The notes under the pieces were generated by a model, which saw nothing but the letters and a program-made list of their open reading frames with translations, did not search any database and was not told the DNA's origin. DNA of 27,701 bases, taken from a virus. Location of the stretch: IMG/VR virus record IMGVR_UViG_3300036876_000106, positions 1-27,701 of that record. One strand, 5' to 3'. The stretch's first letter is position 1; each line of letters starts with the position of its first letter. The translations under genes were made by a program, and so were the position numbers. Shown piece after piece: positions 1 to 9,800 of the stretch.

Positions 1-71
1 AGCGCCTCTGCCATGATGCTGCGCGCCGAGTTGCCGGTACACAACACAAGAATGTTGTAGGGCTTCCGCAT
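1..71 (-). CDS. arsC: Arsenate reductase / low-molecular-weight protein tyrosine phosphatase family (5' part only)
   Basis: The first 23 codons of a leftward gene are visible and the rest is outside the window. The peptide starts MRKPYNILVLCTGNSARS and continues IMAEA. This is the N-terminal beta strand and the C-T-G-N-S-A-R-S phosphate-binding loop of the LMW-phosphatase fold, in the form typical of thioredoxin-coupled ArsC proteins, with the nucleophilic cysteine at residue 11. The ATG at 71-69 has a good ribosome-binding site (AGGAG, complement of 80-84). It is the only non-phage gene seen and it marks the host side of the junction. The family cannot be narrowed between arsenate reductase and another LMW phosphatase from 23 residues; the loop favours ArsC. 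Confidence 0.82.
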   Translation of the reverse strand, partial: MRKPYNILVLCTGNSARSIMAEA

Positions 72-236: not shown

Positions 237-410
237 TTACTGAATCCAGCCATAATTACCCCCAGAAGAGCTACTCGGGGCGGCGGCTACAATTATCGAA
301 AAAGCCTGACTTCCTGGGTAACCATTTGCCCCGGTGGCACTTATCGTAAAGGTTGATGTGCCAACGGTTGTCGGCAGGCCACCGATAACCCCTAAGGAAG
401 CATCCTGACT
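237..410 (-). pseudogene. In-frame Ig-like (putative Ig / He_PIG-type) C-terminal fragment behind the fibre stop codon
   Basis: Directly after the TAG stop of the fibre gene (413-411) the same reading frame stays open for 57 codons, to a TAA at 239-237. It reads like the second half of a bacterial putative-Ig domain: GVIGGLPTTVGTSTFTIS, then a strand ending AFSIIV, then a Ser/Gly linker and NYGWIQ. The first half of such a domain is missing, and there is no start codon or ribosome-binding site. It may be the tail of a displaced fibre or host gene left after recombination, or a C-terminal extension reached by amber readthrough. The style (Ig fold, Ser/Gly linker, final aromatic) is like the C-terminus of the tail-tip protein ending at 1684, which favours a phage origin. 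Confidence 0.6.
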
Positions 411-1682
411 CTACGGGTAGGTGACCTGCCAACCCAAAAATGTTTGAGAGAGTACCTGGCCGACTGGATCAAGCACTGCTGCTAAGTAATTGAAACCAGA
501 GCTACCAAGCCAGCTAGAGCTTTTCGAGACCGAATAAGCCAGAGTCCACAAGTACCCATCTATTGAAAAACTGATATTCAACGTTGTGCCGGTATCCTGC
601 ACTCTGATCCCGAGGAGATTACCGTTAAAAGTGGTCATTAATAAGTCCGCATCCCAAGAAGTGGATGAGTTCCAGAGCCCGACGTTCCATTGGGCTATGT
701 ATGTTGATGATCCAGACCACCGGATTCCGAATCGCATCAATTTACCAGTTAAAGAATTCAAAATGGCTACGCCGACGAACGGATTTGCGGAGTCTGAGGA
801 AGGTCCTCGAAAACTGTTTACCACCGCTGTAAGTGTGAAAGGAATAGATGGATATGCAGAAGCAACACCTTCGATATGATCACTCCCAGTGTTAGCTGAG
901 TCGGCCAACAAAATGCCGACAGCGGCATTAATCGCGGAAAAGGTCGAAAGCTGATTGAAGGCAGTTAATAATCCAGTATTTGCAAGTGTGGGATAAGCTG
1001 GTGATGAACCAAGGATTCCAGGGAAAAGAAATATTCCATTTGGAATACTGCCCCCACCGCTGCCTGGGGCAGCGCTAATAATCCCCGCCGAAATAGTGAT
1101 TGAAGAGCCATCGGGCCTGACAGCGCCCAAAGCTGATGTGGTTGCAACGGGTAAGTCAGCAGGAACCAGCGCGCGCAAGGTGGCTAGCCCGGAGGATCCG
1201 TTTGGCGAAGCTAGAACCTCATTAGCAGCGCCGGATGGCAGTGAAGCTCCAGCAGCGCTTAAAACTCCCGCCGAAATCGTGATCGAAGAGTTATCCGGTT
1301 TGACGGCTCCTGGCGCCAGGGCAGATGCGAGGGGTAAGTCGGCGGAAACAAGAGCACGTAAAGCGGCTAGCCCAGAGGCTCCGTTTGGCGAAGCTAGAAC
1401 TTGATTGGCAGGACCGGACGGTAGAGGCGTCGCAGGCGGAACATACCAAGTGCCATCGGCTTTGAGCACCTTCCCCGCAGCCGCGTCTCCGGCGGCCGGA
1501 GCAGGCACGAGGCCCATGACGCCGCCGGCGCCAGAGTCGCCCACCATCTTTGGAAGATAAGCTGACACATTACGCGCGATAGTGGGATCGAGAGACGGCG
1601 CATCGGCCTGCCATTCTACATTCAAGCCGCCAACAGGAGCCGCGGGCTCCGAGTTATTTAGATTGATCGTCTGCGTTGGCAT
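411..1682 (-). CDS. Tail fibre / receptor-binding protein with 61-residue tandem repeats
   Basis: This is a 423-aa protein and the last complete gene of the tail operon. Residues 1-85 (INLNNSEPAAPVGG, then a GDSG..G motif and a KADGTW motif) are the N-terminal type common in tail fibres. Residues 87-147 and 148-208 are two tandem 61-residue repeats, each starting LPSG and ending in an SITISAG-type strand. After a Gly-rich hinge, residues 212-423 form a Ser/Thr-rich beta domain ending GWQVTYP that resembles a concanavalin-like lectin fold (inference from pattern). It starts one base after the stop of the tail-tip gene, so it is co-translated. The distal half is visibly more AT-rich than the head genes, as is usual for exchanged receptor-binding modules. 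Host binding is inferred from position and architecture. Confidence 0.8.
   Translation of the reverse strand: MPTQTINLNNSEPAAPVGGLNVEWQADAPSLDPTIARNVSAYLPKMVGDSGAGGVMGLVPAPAAGDAAAGKVLKADGTWYVPPATPLPSGPANQVLASPNGASGLAALRALVSADLPLASALAPGAVKPDNSSITISAGVLSAAGASLPSGAANEVLASPNGSSGLATLRALVPADLPVATTSALGAVRPDGSSITISAGIISAAPGSGGGSIPNGIFLFPGILGSSPAYPTLANTGLLTAFNQLSTFSAINAAVGILLADSANTGSDHIEGVASAYPSIPFTLTAVVNSFRGPSSDSANPFVGVAILNSLTGKLMRFGIRWSGSSTYIAQWNVGLWNSSTSWDADLLMTTFNGNLLGIRVQDTGTTLNISFSIDGYLWTLAYSVSKSSSWLGSSGFNYLAAVLDPVGQVLSQTFLGWQVTYP
1059..1424 (-). repeat. Two tandem 183-bp repeats inside the fibre gene
   Basis: Units at 1242-1424 and 1059-1241 encode fibre residues 87-147 and 148-208. Shared peptide landmarks are LPSG, VLASPNG, GL(A)LRALV.ADLP, GAV.PD.SSITISAG and SAA. 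Nucleotide similarity is clear, for example the shared GTTTGGCGAAGCTAGAAC, but it is not perfect. The duplication is therefore not recent, or has been kept under selection. Such repeats usually act as shaft or spacer segments. Confidence 0.8.
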
Positions 1683-1683
1683 G

Positions 1684-4600
1684 TTAGCTCCCGTTCACTG
1701 TCCAGCCGCCGCCAGAAGTGACGGCGCTGGAAATGGTGATTGGCGCAGAAGCCGTGGCCGCAGGCACGGCTAAACTCGTAGCCTCGATAGTGTGATTGCC
1801 TGTTGCCGGTGGCGCGGAATAGAAGCCCGTCGAATCGATCGTGCCGACTGTTACATTGCCTCCTGGGATGCCATCCACAGCCCATGTGACGCTCTGATTC
1901 GCGTTATTCAGCACTGTGGCCGAGAACTGCAAAGTAGTTGCCGCTGGAATGGTGGCCGAAGAAGGCGAGATATTGACGACAGCGGAGACTGCGGAAGCCG
2001 GCGCGCAGTAGAGCGCAAAAACGTCTGCGGCTCCTGCCCAGATATTCCCCTGGCCATCACCGAACTCGATATGAACGACGTTGTTATCGTCGAGATAGGC
2101 GGCATAGATGCCGTGGGCGTGATTTCCATTGTCTGGATAATCCCACCCGCTGGTGCCCACGATAGCTTCCAGCGAAGCACCATCGCCCGCGGCTGCCGGT
2201 AATTCAAGAGTTGAGCCATCCGCTACGCCCAGGGCGCAACCAACGCCGAAAACCAGGCCAGCGCTCAATGGACATTGCGCCCACTTTGCTCCCCCGAGCG
2301 TTTGAGTCGTCCAGGTTCCCATGTTGTTCTTCCAGGCAAAAACGAGAACCGAGGCGTTGCCATGCCAGACGTTGCCTTCGCCATCCTTGAAGTTAAGATG
2401 AACAACCTGGCTGGAATCGACGTATGCGCCAACCCAGTGCGCATCGTGGCCGCCAGTTGGAACACCATCGTGAGGAAACGCGACGGCAAACATCTTATCT
2501 GTGGTGAAGCCAGCCGGCAGCGAAACTGTAAAGCTCCCATCGCCGGCGACGATTCCGCGTCCGAAGACGATCTCTTCACCGCCTTGCAATGTGAAGCTAA
2601 CCCAAGTCAAGCCACCGCTCGAAGCAGTCACATCCGCGCTGAGCCACGCGAGGCAGGCATAATTTGCCTGGCCGATCCAGTAACTCCCGTCGTTGTCTTC
2701 GTATTTCAGCGTGAGGCCAAAAGAACTGCTCACATCGCAAAGCTCGATGGTAGCCATGGCGCCGCTCCAACCGCTGCCACCAAAGCCCTCTGGAGAAGCC
2801 CAGGCGAGTGTATTGCCGACAGGATAGCCGGTAGACGGCAATTGAAATATCGATCCACCCGCGCCTGATCCGGTGAAAAATGAGAAGTTACCTGCCGCGA
2901 GGGGAATCGCTGTGAAGCTGGAGCTATTGCCGGGATCACTGCCCGGCACACTCGGCCAGCCAGCCTGCGTAGGATCGCTGGTGTCATACATGACCGCTTC
3001 GTTATAAGGCCCGAGCGAAAACTCGATCTCACCGCTGTTTTCGTCAGGCTTGAGAGAGATTTCACCGCCCGAACCAGCGGCTTTGGCGCTCGGCGGATAG
3101 ACCGTGCGCGGTTCCAACACTTCATATTCACCGGCGTATTGGAAGTTCGTCGAATCATCCAAAGTAACGTGGTCTCCGCACTCAATGGCGCAAGCCAGAT
3201 TTCCGGCCGCGTCGCGCGCGAACATCGAGGTGCGGAATTTCACGCATGGAGGCGTAATATATGGCGACTGATCGATTCCGAGCTGCCGATCCCGCTCATA
3301 GCAGGTGAGCCGGCTGACCTGGTCATAAGTGCTCGTTGCGAAGTCGAGTTCCTGCTTCACCTTATTGCGCTGGAGCGGGATGCCAAGGCCGATCACACCG
3401 CGCGCGAGCATGTTGTTTTTGTGCCAAAACTCCGGCGTCCGTTCTTTAAATCGCGAATACAGTAGGCCGAGGCCCCCGCCAGCACCAACACTCGCGGGGA
3501 AGTTTGTGCCTTTGCTTACCAGCGTCAAAGTCGAGGGATCAACCTCAGTCGTTGAGCCTGGGTTAATGATGGCAGGAACGCTGTAGACTGCCCACTGCCC
3601 GTCATAAGTCGTATTTGTTCCACCGATTGCGATTCTGTCTCCACCTTCGCAGGGATGCGGCTCGACCGTCGTCACAACAGGGTTTCCGCCGTAAGTGCAG
3701 GTGATTGAGGCGATCTGCGAGCATTCAGGGACCAGAATATCTCTGTGTTTGCCGATAAAACGGTTCGCGGTTTTATGAAGGCTCTGATCACTTGCGTCCC
3801 AGGAGCCGGGCAAAATATGAGCGCGGCTGAAGGTGAAGACGCTGGATCTCGGCATGTCGCATTTCAGGGAAACCTTTCCGGCATATTCGGAAGAAAAACT
3901 ACGGCAGCAGATCAGAATTTGCTCAAGGACCGCTTGCAGGCTCGTTTGCTGGTTGAACGAATAATGCCCTTCGAACCTGCGCCGGCTGTTCGGCAGGATC
4001 TCATCAAAATATTGAGCAGCTGTAAAAATCGATCCCCAGTCAAAGCGATTCTGAACCGCCTGGGTCACTTTATCCGGGCCATAAGTCAGATCGAGCCGAT
4101 AATCGGGCATCAATTTCCGGCGCAGAAGCACATCGACGAAATGCCAGGCCGGATTCGTCGTGAATGCATAGCCGGTCTGATTCCCCTCATCATCGAACAT
4201 TCGGCACTTCAAGGCTCGCCAGAGGCCAACCGGCGCGATGTCGGTCCACATGCTCGCATCGTTGCCGTTGTTGCTCGATTGGTTCAGAATCGGCTGTTTC
4301 CGCATCAGCGTGTAGTAGGCAATGCGCGATTCAGTGATGCACTGCACAGCCGGCGGATAGAGCGTGGAGAGAATGTCAAGGCCCTGATCCGGGCCTGTCG
4401 ATGTGGGAGACAATTCACTGCCAACGGTCGAATCGCAGCCGCTGTGAAAATTAAAAACAAATCCCTCTGGGTTGCCGTCGAGCGCTTGAAGCCAGTCAAA
4501 ACCGTAGCTGCGGATCACCTTCTGCGCGGGTGTGTTCACGCCGTTCCAAACCAGCAGATCGTTGATCCAAAGCTCAACGCAGCCATCCCACTCGCCATGG

Positions 4601-4773
4601 CCGAGCTTCCACAGTCCGAGGCGCGTGTATTCGTTGACTGAATCGCCAGTATCCTGCAGCTGGTAATATTTCGAGCGTTTTCCGGTGGCCCAGACATAGC
4701 CGTAAGAAAGAGGAATCGGAGTCCCGGTGGTCTCGCTGGCAGAGCTGCTCTGTGTTGTGGAAGCGTTTGCCAT
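1684..4773 (-). CDS. Tail-tip / central fibre protein (lambda gpJ position) with repeats and a C-terminal Ig-like domain
   Basis: A 1029-aa protein follows the gpL-like gene through a TGATG stop/start overlap at 4775-4771. The N-terminal ~600 residues are a phage tail-tip type region (SYGYVWATGKRS near the start; later stretches on binding and base architecture are not assignable in detail). Residues ~640-925 hold about three related ~100-residue beta repeats. The clearest pair are the segments HLNFKDGEGNVWHGNASVLVFAW and HIEFGDGQGNIWAGAADVFALYC, and an earlier, more diverged copy contains NDGSYWIGQANYACLAW. Residues ~932-1015 form a bacterial Ig-like domain (TLQFSATV, SVTWAVDGIPGGN, GTIDSTGFYSAP). 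The protein ends in a Gly-rich tail. Position after a gpL-like gene and before the fibre supports a host-recognition tail-tip role. Confidence 0.78.
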   Translation of the reverse strand: MANASTTQSSSASETTGTPIPLSYGYVWATGKRSKYYQLQDTGDSVNEYTRLGLWKLGHGEWDGCVELWINDLLVWNGVNTPAQKVIRSYGFDWLQALDGNPEGFVFNFHSGCDSTVGSELSPTSTGPDQGLDILSTLYPPAVQCITESRIAYYTLMRKQPILNQSSNNGNDASMWTDIAPVGLWRALKCRMFDDEGNQTGYAFTTNPAWHFVDVLLRRKLMPDYRLDLTYGPDKVTQAVQNRFDWGSIFTAAQYFDEILPNSRRRFEGHYSFNQQTSLQAVLEQILICCRSFSSEYAGKVSLKCDMPRSSVFTFSRAHILPGSWDASDQSLHKTANRFIGKHRDILVPECSQIASITCTYGGNPVVTTVEPHPCEGGDRIAIGGTNTTYDGQWAVYSVPAIINPGSTTEVDPSTLTLVSKGTNFPASVGAGGGLGLLYSRFKERTPEFWHKNNMLARGVIGLGIPLQRNKVKQELDFATSTYDQVSRLTCYERDRQLGIDQSPYITPPCVKFRTSMFARDAAGNLACAIECGDHVTLDDSTNFQYAGEYEVLEPRTVYPPSAKAAGSGGEISLKPDENSGEIEFSLGPYNEAVMYDTSDPTQAGWPSVPGSDPGNSSSFTAIPLAAGNFSFFTGSGAGGSIFQLPSTGYPVGNTLAWASPEGFGGSGWSGAMATIELCDVSSSFGLTLKYEDNDGSYWIGQANYACLAWLSADVTASSGGLTWVSFTLQGGEEIVFGRGIVAGDGSFTVSLPAGFTTDKMFAVAFPHDGVPTGGHDAHWVGAYVDSSQVVHLNFKDGEGNVWHGNASVLVFAWKNNMGTWTTQTLGGAKWAQCPLSAGLVFGVGCALGVADGSTLELPAAAGDGASLEAIVGTSGWDYPDNGNHAHGIYAAYLDDNNVVHIEFGDGQGNIWAGAADVFALYCAPASAVSAVVNISPSSATIPAATTLQFSATVLNNANQSVTWAVDGIPGGNVTVGTIDSTGFYSAPPATGNHTIEATSLAVPAATASAPITISSAVTSGGGWTVNGS

Positions 4774-5975: not shown

Positions 5976-6832
5976 CAGCGCATAACCTCCAGCGCGTACC
6001 AGCTCACATTGGTGCCCGTTGCCGCGGCGTTCTTGGTGCCGTCACAGACCACCTTCACTCGATGGATATCGAGCGGCATACTCTGCTGCGTGACCACGAT
6101 CTGCGGTCCAATGTCGGCGGCGTTATAGAGATCGACCGTTTGCAAGAGGACACCATCAACAAAGATGTCAGCTTTGCCAAACTCGGGACCTTTCAGCAAA
6201 TAAAGCCGGAAACCGTAGCCGCGATATTCATATTGTGCCCAGTCACCGGCCGCGCCTGCGTCATCCATCGTGATATAGGCGGTGCCAATAGTGGCCAGGT
6301 TTACCCGCTCCGTGCCCTGGCTACCGGCGACAGAGGTGCGCGCCGTCTGCGACCAAGCTCCGTTAAAAGCCAGCTTCTGATCGCCGAAGTCGTTATTGAT
6401 GAAGAATGCGATCGCATCGTGAGCCCAGTCGCTCGGATATTCGACCATCGCCTGCTGTGGGATCTCCTCAAAGGTGACATTTGCGACATCCCACATGCCA
6501 TTGCCGGTTTCGACAGGGATGACCTCGGATGTGAAGCGACCGACATAGTGACGGCCTCCGCCGTCCCAATCGATGATGGTGAAGAAACCGTCCTCGTATT
6601 GTTCGTAGTACCACTTCAGCCGCTGCACGCATGCCCAGGAGCGCATTGTCCAACTTAAAGAAAAGGTATGGCCAGTATTTTGCGTCTCGCGCGTCCAGGG
6701 CGTGCCGCCGACGGCCTTTTTGTTCAGCTTGGTGCTCGTGCGCTTGCGCGTGAATCCGTAGTTGGGCGTCATCGAATCTTCGATAGACTCATCCCATGTC
6801 GTTGTCGGGTTAAGGATGTCGCTGGCTGGCAT
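5975..6832 (-). CDS. Distal tail protein (lambda gpM position) fused to a carbohydrate-binding-like domain
   Basis: A 285-aa protein. Residues 1-128 look like a distal-tail/minor-tail domain (KWYYEQYEDGFFTIIDWDGG, VANVTFEEI) and occupy the first slot after the tape measure, as gpM does in lambda. Residues ~150-285 have the pattern of a jelly-roll carbohydrate-binding module: a YRGYGFRLYLLKGPEFGKAD stretch, VDLYNAADIG, and a final His-x-Val-x-Val strand followed by GTKN and a closing Trp-Tyr strand. In secreted glycosidases this pattern binds glycans (family knowledge), so contact with a cell-surface polysaccharide is inferred. Its start overlaps the tape-measure stop as TAATG at 6834-6830. 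Confidence 0.72.
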   Translation of the reverse strand: MPASDILNPTTTWDESIEDSMTPNYGFTRKRTSTKLNKKAVGGTPWTRETQNTGHTFSLSWTMRSWACVQRLKWYYEQYEDGFFTIIDWDGGGRHYVGRFTSEVIPVETGNGMWDVANVTFEEIPQQAMVEYPSDWAHDAIAFFINNDFGDQKLAFNGAWSQTARTSVAGSQGTERVNLATIGTAYITMDDAGAAGDWAQYEYRGYGFRLYLLKGPEFGKADIFVDGVLLQTVDLYNAADIGPQIVVTQQSMPLDIHRVKVVCDGTKNAAATGTNVSWYALEVMR

Positions 6833-9800
6833 TAGAGTCCTCCCCCCGAGTTCTCCGCATAGCTGTCGTTCACGGCCGAGCGGATGTTGTGCTTGTATTT
6901 GTCGAGGAAACCAGCGACGCCCTTCGCGTCAATTGCGTGAACGTGCAGATGAACATCACCCATCGACGGGGTTTGCGCTGGCATCGTTCCGCGATTTCCT
7001 TCGGTCACGGCTTTTGTGATCTCGCTATTGTCCACGCTCGAAAAGATGCGCTCGCCCGCGTGATTCAAGTTGTAGCCGGTTTCGGGAACATAAGATGTGC
7101 CAGTGGCGTATTGCGCTGCGCTCGCGGAGTACTGGCTGCGGCCGGCCTTTTCCTCAGCTGAGAGTTTGCCTTCGGCCTGCTTGATCTCCGGAGTGATGTG
7201 ATCGTTGCGATAGCGCCTGGCGGAAGGCCCCATTTTGCTTAAGGTTTTGAAGGCCTCCGCATCCAGGCCTTGTAGATCCGAATAGGCTGAAAGAAAATCC
7301 ATCGAGCCGCTGTTATAAGCTTGCTGCGTATCGGCGATGTGTGGACGGACAGTCTTTTTGTCGTATTCTTCAGCCTTCTTCGCGCCTCCAGGCCCCAAGT
7401 AGCCAATTACCGCGCCAGCCGCTGCGCCAACCGCCGCGCCGAGAGGGCCAGCCACGGCCATGCCAAGCTCAGCGCCGCTCAAAGCGCCGGTAGTTGCGCC
7501 TCCCATTCCTCCTGTGCTCTCATAAGCGCTGTACATTCCAGCCACGCCTTCTGCCGCAGACATCGTATTTGCGTCAGTGAGCCCGCTGCTCGTCATCGAG
7601 CCGTTGCCGCCACCTTTGGGTGTGAAGTCTCCTTTTTTATCAAATTTTCCACTCAGATCAGGATTTTGGGTCTCTGCATAGCCAGCTTCCTGATCGGTTT
7701 TGGGGACGGGCTTGAAGTGGTGATAAATAGCTTTAGAGCCGGAGACGATGCCATATTCTTGAGATCCATCCCCTCCAGTTCCCGCACTGCCTCCGAAATT
7801 AAACTTCGCCTTTGTGCCACCGGCGATGTCTTGCTTGCCTTGTCTGTAAATCTTATGGAGATCCTTGATATTAGTGATGCCATGGCCAATGCGGCCCGAG
7901 GCTGTCGCTGAAGGGCTCTCAATGCCAAGACCAAAGCCGCCCTCATTTGTATGACCATCCTCGTGCGTTGTAGCTCCAACGCTGCCGACATGTCCTGATG
8001 TGCCCCAATTCGAGTCAGATGTTGTTGTGCCGGTTCCTAGTCCACCGCTTGCCCCGGTGCTCCCCGGTGCGTAAAACGTCGTGCCAGCGCCACCAGGAGT
8101 ATATCCACCACCGCCGAATGAGGTCGCAGCCATGCTCGTCCCAGGTCCACTACTATTAGCAAAGCCCCCGCTGCCAACGTGGATTGTCGCAGAGGTGATC
8201 GAGAATGTGGCGGAAGCCATCGGAGCGATGCCGTGGACGCCAGGGATCTCCGACTTTACGGCCGTCCCCGCGCCAGGTGTTTTCTTTTTACCGAAGCCGA
8301 AGCCCTCGAAAACTTCACCGAAGAGGCCTCCCGAGCCTTTGGAATCTGCGCCAGTGCCAGCGCCACCTTTTTTGGTCTGGAAATGCTGCACAATCGTCGC
8401 AGCCATATTGCCCGCGGCTTTATCTCCAAGCTCTTTCAGCGCTTCCTTGGGATGATCCAGGCTCTTGAAAAGATGGGTGAACTGCTCGGCCATCTTGTCA
8501 TGGGCTTCTTTAGCTGCTGCTACCATCTCCGCATTGGCCTCAGCTTGTGCAGCGGCCGCGCGGCGATGGTATTGTTCTTCGGCGTCCTCCTGGCCGGAGA
8601 GTTCTTCTTTATAGCGACGCAGCTTTTCATCAAGCTCGGCTTTAATTGACGCGGTTTTTTGCTTCTCGGCACTCAGTGACTTAACCCGCGCCTGGGCTTC
8701 AATTTGCTCGGTTTCATCAATAGAGTGCTGGTGCTTGGCGGCCAGCTCGTCGGAGTTGCGTTTTTTCTCAGCGGAGTCCCTTTCGTTTTGAGCGCGCATT
8801 TCCTGATCAGTCTGATCGGTGGTGGTTTTAACCAAAGCCAGACGCTGGCCGGAATTGAGGTCCGTGCGCTCATAAACGTGAGAGAGATTGATTTCTCCCT
8901 CCCGTTTGATTCGGGCCGATCCAGTGAGACCAGCTAGCTCTGTTTGCTCGCGCTGATGTGTGATCTGCGCATCGATCTCAGCATAACGATTCATCTCTTC
9001 GTTATGGAATTTGGTGTGAACATCCGCGATGGCCTGGGCGCTGGTAATTCCTCTCCGCTTCAGGTCTTCAATCGCGGCCGCTTCCTGCGCGTGATAGAGT
9101 TCACTGCCGCGCAGCCCGGATTCCAAGGCCTGCTCATGGATGCGGGCCAGCTCCTGGGCCTGCGACTTGGCGTCGCCTGCGTGGCCTTTTTCTTGATTGG
9201 CTAGTTCGGCATCGGCCTTCTTTCGAGCAATGAGGACTTCACGCGCTTCTTTATCAGCCCCAGCGTTCATAGGAACTGAATTGCCTAAAATTCTGTCTTG
9301 CTCGTTTCCATAAAAGCGTTCCTCGTGCGCGCGATCTCTCGCTTCCGTAATCGCCGCGTCATGCTTTTGCTTCCCGGACAGACCAACATTCCCAGCATAT
9401 TTCAGATCGATATCACTCAAGCGCTGTTCGTGCGCTTGTTGAGCTTCAGCTGTGTGTTGCAGCTGATCCAGCTTTTTCTGCGCGTCAATTTGGTTGCCTG
9501 CCGCCTCACCTTTTTCGTGGCCTGCTTGCCACTGAGAGCCCACGAAAGGGACAATTGCGCGCCAGCTCCATGATTGCGGGCCTTTTTGTTCGATTGTTCG
9601 TATTTGCTGTTCGTATCGCTCAGCCGCCGCTGTAGCCTCATCAATTCGTGCGCGCGTGGTTTCAATCGAATGCGTGTCACCGAAGTTTTGATCTTTTGTT
9701 TTTGCAACTTCAGCTTGGTAATCCTGGACTGCTTTAGGAAGTGCCGTGAGAGAGTTCCAGAGCTTTTCAGCGCCATGGATCATGGCCGAAAAGACCATTC

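Follow-up and report, generated by a model that had tools for sequence, protein, structure and literature searches.

The window analysed here (27,701 nucleotides, positions 1 to 27,701 of the IMG/VR virus record IMGVR_UViG_3300036876_000106) carries near one of its edges a tail fibre gene, the amber stop codon of which is followed in the same reading frame by a further 57 sense codons with an immunoglobulin-like signature. This arrangement raises the question of whether the additional codons belong to the fibre, either as the severed end of a longer gene or as an extension reached by readthrough of the TAG, or whether they were left behind when neighbouring genes recombined.

Translation of the minus strand confirmed that the fibre protein ends with ..FLGWQVTYP in front of its TAG and that the same frame then stays open up to a TAA (Table 1). 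The C-terminus of the extension reads ..GGNYGWIQ. There is no ATG, GTG or TTG within the open frame and thus, with these start codons, the extension could only be translated by passing the TAG. The other two frames of this stretch contain four and two stops. The Ig-like half-domain of the original prediction was also recovered: residues 3-41 of the extension matched positions 55-95 of the 96 positions of the Pfam profile He_PIG (PF05345; E 3.3e-4), which corresponds to the second half of the domain. With 21.5 bits as protein and 20 bits in the genome search, this match is below the curated cut-off of 24 bits. When the 57 residues were shuffled, none of nine shuffles matched He_PIG and one matched another family (E 0.25). 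Protein matches to the extension (E <= 1e-4) were present in 33 of 398 genomes, all drawn from one acidobacterial family. Taken together, the half-domain, the shuffles and the genome matches indicate that the protein resemblance of the extension is not a product of chance. The continuation had originally been called unlikely by chance, and for the resemblance this judgment holds; it does not extend to the in-phase join, which taken alone has a chance of 1 in 3.

Table 1. Coordinates and supporting observations for the features of the window and for the He_PIG genes of other phages
Feature	Locus	Position	Strand	Observation
Putative host DNA with the beginning of a low-molecular-weight phosphatase-like gene	window	2-71	-	PF01451 on 23 aa, E 5.5e-4, below cut-off
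Right end of the putative Mu-like prophage, CTATGGAAAATGGAAT ... GGCCACA	window	189-104	-	similar block in 11 other loci
TAA closing the extension frame	window	239-237	-	matches to L126, L128, L129 and L130 reach the last or second-last residues
In-frame continuation, 57 sense codons	window	410-240	-	probably the last part of a distinct phage gene with He_PIG (Ig-like); first domain half lacking
Fibre stop codon TAG	window	413-411	-	a few residues from the stops of same-domain relatives
Tail fibre gene	window	411-1682	-	ORF, 423 aa; alignments, structure model, fold matches
Gene for a tail protein, upstream of the fibre gene	window	1684-4773	-	ORF; weak Big_2 Ig-like match near the C-terminus
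He_PIG gene	L126	3761-4171		ends ..SNYGWCG before stop
He_PIG gene	L134	3749-4165		138 aa, ends ..GGSYVFLQ before stop
He_PIG gene	L127	3173-4150		ends ..GNYGYVA before stop
He_PIG gene	L128			ends ..TNYCLIY before stop
He_PIG gene	L129			ends ..SNYGYVA before stop
He_PIG gene	L130			ends ..SYAFIS before stop
He_PIG gene	L120			ends ..APVSFAY before stop

The fibre itself seems to be complete at its TAG without the extension, as judged from the positions of the stops in its relatives and from a structural model. Its C-terminal domain (about residues 211-423) recurs in L002, L003 (identical to L004 and L005) and L008 (identical to L009) at 35-36% identity, and the fibre of L035 aligns with it distantly (17% identity), so that the latter backs the position of the fibre end only at this distance. 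In the alignment, the stop codons of these four relatives (TAG in L002 and L003, TAA in L008 and L035) are all located a few residues from the TAG of the window. The fibre ends of L002 and L003 are close to one another. The contig of L008 terminates at the fibre stop and is uninformative on downstream DNA; in L002, L003 and L035, the DNA 3' of the stop differs from the extension. This comes close to what the original prediction had named as speaking against it, namely related fibres that end at the same TAG with unrelated sequence behind. The C-terminal domain was modelled as a beta-sandwich, the last strand of which (residues 204-211 of 213) ends just before the stop. Confidence in this model, which was built from five sequences, is moderate (mean pLDDT 59.9, first 43 residues below 50). 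Among the fold matches listed, TM-scores over the query ranged from 0.37 to 0.54, with hits to alginate lyases, family 43 xylosidases and legume lectins as well as to a plant-pathogen protein of unknown function. No match was obtained when solved structures were searched by sequence or when the fibre was compared with 50,697 phage records.

Matches to the fibre N-terminus were found in seven of 396 genomes of a draw from the phylum (E <= 1e-3) and in four of 398 genomes of the family draw (E <= 1e-6), which amounts to eight distinct genomes over both draws. Five of them (G001, G002, G233, G075, G384) were inspected and none has a fibre ending in He_PIG; G089, G114 and G396 were outside this inspection. 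In the fibre shaft, codons of about 87-144 and 148-205 constitute a duplicated stretch of 173 bases with 75% identity between the copies; the alignments of L002, L003 and L006 cover one of these. The Big_2 match (PF02368) in the neighbouring tail protein reached 20.1 bits, which is below its cut-off.

On its other side, the extension borders on the end of a prophage. We read the record as a Mu-like prophage since it encodes proteins matching Portal_Mu (PF06074, E 1.2e-69), Phage_Mu_F (PF04233, E 2.2e-19) and Mu Gp27 (PF11985, E 1.8e-6); a helix-turn-helix gene is located at the opposite side of the record. The right-end block of the window was also present in L002, L003, L007, L026, L028, L032, L034, L042, L044, L045 and L054, in each of which GCCACA is followed by differing DNA. 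From this pattern, the phage terminus would be base 104 and host DNA would begin at base 103, with 32 bases between this predicted terminus and the ATG of the phosphatase-like gene. Thus, the extension sits between the last gene and the right end of the prophage. Two of the related loci (L034, L035) come from genomes of Acidobacteria. In acidobacterial and viral contigs, the right ends consist of AAAATGGAAT, about 60-75 bases and GCAGCCACA or a near variant of it, beyond which the DNA differs. A search for the right-end pattern yielded 33 stretches: eight were on contigs already in the set, 19 were left out of the reading, and of the six new ones read, four were such ends (L042, L044, L045, L054). 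The remaining two (L040, L052) look like chance.

The window shares with Mu-like transposable prophages the three Mu-type proteins, the position of the tail and fibre genes as last genes, and a right end that closes in CA with varied DNA beyond it. Mu itself terminates in CA. The record is possibly truncated at the side opposite to the right end. L028 and L044 have Mu-like right ends at which the terminus is preceded by a tail protein gene as the last long frame, with no fibre gene seen in between. In L003, two direct repeats of 185 bases (6162-6346 and 7338-7522, 98% identity) are located between the fibre and the right end; they flank a gene with a match to Dam-type methyltransferases, which was seen in L016 on the same contig (28.3 bits versus a cut-off of 28.1 bits).

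A search of viral contigs with only the extension confirmed no relative. An alignment query consisting of the extension and three similar frames from acidobacterial genomes (L118-L120) reached 19 viral loci. Seven genes were inspected (L126, L127, L128, L129, L130, L134 and L120, the last in an apparent prophage), and in each of them He_PIG scored above its cut-off close to the C-terminus. The layout common to these intact genes is the He_PIG domain, a short linker, a mostly aromatic tail and the stop. In blastp, residues 1-55 of the extension were 51% identical to L126, residues 1-56 were 52%, 45% and 45% identical to L128, L129 and L130, and residues 7-56 were 50% identical to L127. For L134, tblastn gave 56% identity in 55 columns that extend to its final residue and blastp 54% over 35 columns (residues 3-37). 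Against a database that consisted of the seven He_PIG proteins alone, blastp E-values ranged from 3.2e-7 to 1.2e-11. Depending on the comparison used, the homology starts 1 to 7 residues past the TAG. From these identities, the extension is most likely the 3' end of a separate He_PIG phage gene, the own stop codon of which was probably retained; the TAA at 239-237 would then be the original stop of the lost gene. The window resembles the phage genes with C-terminal He_PIG in the second domain half, the linker, the aromatic tail and the stop, whereas their start, N-terminal part and first domain half are absent from it. The intact Ig domain that the original prediction had advised to look for was present in other phages, where it closes a gene of its own. 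The view of that prediction that the missing first half points to a recombination scar is supported. In L127, an F5/8 type C (galactose-binding-like) domain (PF00754, E 3.6e-19) precedes the Ig domain, and this suggests that genes of this kind may act in surface binding.

The surroundings of the intact genes suggest what may have been lost. A gene of about 290-305 amino acids is located directly before the He_PIG gene in L126, L129, L134 and L120, and nearly so in L127; in L128 and L130 the preceding gene is a different one of 337 amino acids. The gene of about 300 amino acids followed by the C-terminal He_PIG gene is thus a recurring phage gene pair in five of these loci. In L127 and L134, this pair is preceded by a fibre gene with the N-terminus of the window fibre (52.9% identity over 87 and 53.0% over 83 columns, respectively). 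Neither the middle gene of about 300 amino acids nor the leading portion of the He_PIG gene is present in the window. The genes of this length belong to two mutually non-matching families (L126, L129, L134 and L096 versus L120 and L127), so that the lost middle gene may have belonged to either. They had no match in any locus recognised here as Mu-like, and two tested proteins of one family had no match in PHROG. He_PIG was found in none of 25 other related records, several of which are fragments ending at or before the fibre stop. No Mu-like relative with the He_PIG gene intact turned up among these records, and the ancestral order of genes is therefore deduced from other phages.

Eleven other right ends were tested for traces of the remnant and a clear one was present in L007 only. 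The fibre of L007 matches that of the window solely over residues 1-143, its N-terminal part, and has a different end. Starting 9 bases past its fibre stop, 38 of 51 bases are identical to the end of the extension. None of 500 and none of 1000 shuffles attained this DNA score, and 6 of 1000 attained that of the protein frame. Here too, the remnant is in the frame of the fibre, and a TGA closes it after 12 codons. The right end of L002 gave a weak signal (score reached by 54 of 1000 shuffles, DNA, 300 bases before the right end), and nothing was found at nine of the 11 right ends, L003 included (559 of 1000 shuffles). For a frame of L002 and L003 reading ..AFSII.., the scores were reached by 7 of 1000 and 0 of 1000 shuffles at the protein level, but by 17 of 500 and 114 of 500 at the DNA level. 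These possible traces are in frames other than that of the fibre. A decayed He_PIG end behind the L002 and L003 fibres was set aside as proof, and because of the mixed shuffle results we did not rely on these traces.

With high probability, the 57 codons are the remnant of a mostly deleted neighbouring gene, which lies in the frame of the fibre by chance and represents an ordinary scar of phage gene shuffling. This reading draws on the resemblance of the remnant, the fibre ends of the relatives, the intact gene and its neighbours as found in other phages, and the location next to the right end. We infer that the right end of an ancestor of this phage carried the fibre gene, a gene of about 300 amino acids and a gene ending in He_PIG with a short aromatic tail, in this order. 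A deletion or an exchange of a module, possibly the fibre module, would have ended inside the He_PIG gene, taking away the middle gene together with the leading portion of the He_PIG gene, which would amount to about 60% of its length had it matched that of L134. The 3' end would thereby have been joined to the DNA at the fibre stop codon or immediately past it, in frame by chance, and would now be untranslated. L007 supports such a deletion or exchange, as it has a piece of the gene tip behind a different fibre end. Several observations count against the remnant reading: no intact He_PIG gene was found in the Mu-like group, the genes of about 300 amino acids matched no known Mu-like locus and fall into two families, the trace is clear at one of the 11 other right ends, and the distant alignment of L035 and the end of the L008 contig at its stop lower our confidence slightly. 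In addition, the extension is open over 57 codons, which is expected of a young scar but also of used sequence, and the join is in frame in L007 as well. The join in the window is documented in one contig.

That the contig is an assembly chimera joining two different phages at the stop codon appears very improbable. We have a single record, and a pattern of 23 bases across the join (wobble positions open) had no exact match in viral contigs, a search from which the record itself and near records were possibly excluded. Nevertheless, the remnant is continued by an ordinary right end and then by DNA of host-like character, and part of the same gene tip sits at the corresponding place in L007, which is a separate record.

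Programmed or leaky readthrough of the TAG, which would yield a putative minority of long, Ig-extended fibres, is in our estimate a very remote prospect. The frame is open for 57 codons in phase, and Ig-like extensions of phage structural proteins, among them coat proteins, are known to be produced by frameshifting (review PMC5009743). The window resembles these cases in that an Ig-like coding stretch follows directly on a structural gene, but it differs from them by a half domain, a plain stop and the lack of an in-frame counterpart in relatives with this fibre end. With profile positions 55-95 of 96 only, the extension would probably not fold alone. None of the three distinct relatives that share the fibre end and have downstream sequence (L002, L003, L035) has it in frame there, and the frame behind the other fibre end of L007 is shut after a few codons. 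Because TAG ends four of the 27 listed genes of the window, fibre included, it is an ordinary stop here. No tRNA genes were found within the window. Beyond the shared frame and the openness of a once-coding stretch, readthrough has no positive support, and the suggestion that the in-phase join reflects a functional link was not borne out. It is just as doubtful that a leaky TAG with an in-frame half Ig domain represents a putative scar on its way to becoming a readthrough extension; if true, this case would picture how Ig-like extensions are first acquired.

Scarcely credible, finally, is a longer, Ig-ended fibre shortened by a point mutation to TAG, as the original prediction had considered: the common frame and a stop between two protein-like stretches would fit, but the first Ig half is absent directly behind the stop, so that even the uncut version would have been defective, the fibre domain of the relatives and the last strand of the model (moderate confidence) end near this place, the Ig domain closes a separate gene in other phages, and no uninterrupted fibre-Ig version was found among the relatives looked at.

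As the remnant of a neighbouring gene, the extension most probably records an exchange of tail genes beside a Mu-like right end, where the tip of the last gene persists while the genes before it are swapped or lost. It also calls for caution, since an in-frame continuation past a stop codon need not imply readthrough, even when it bears a recognisable fold.
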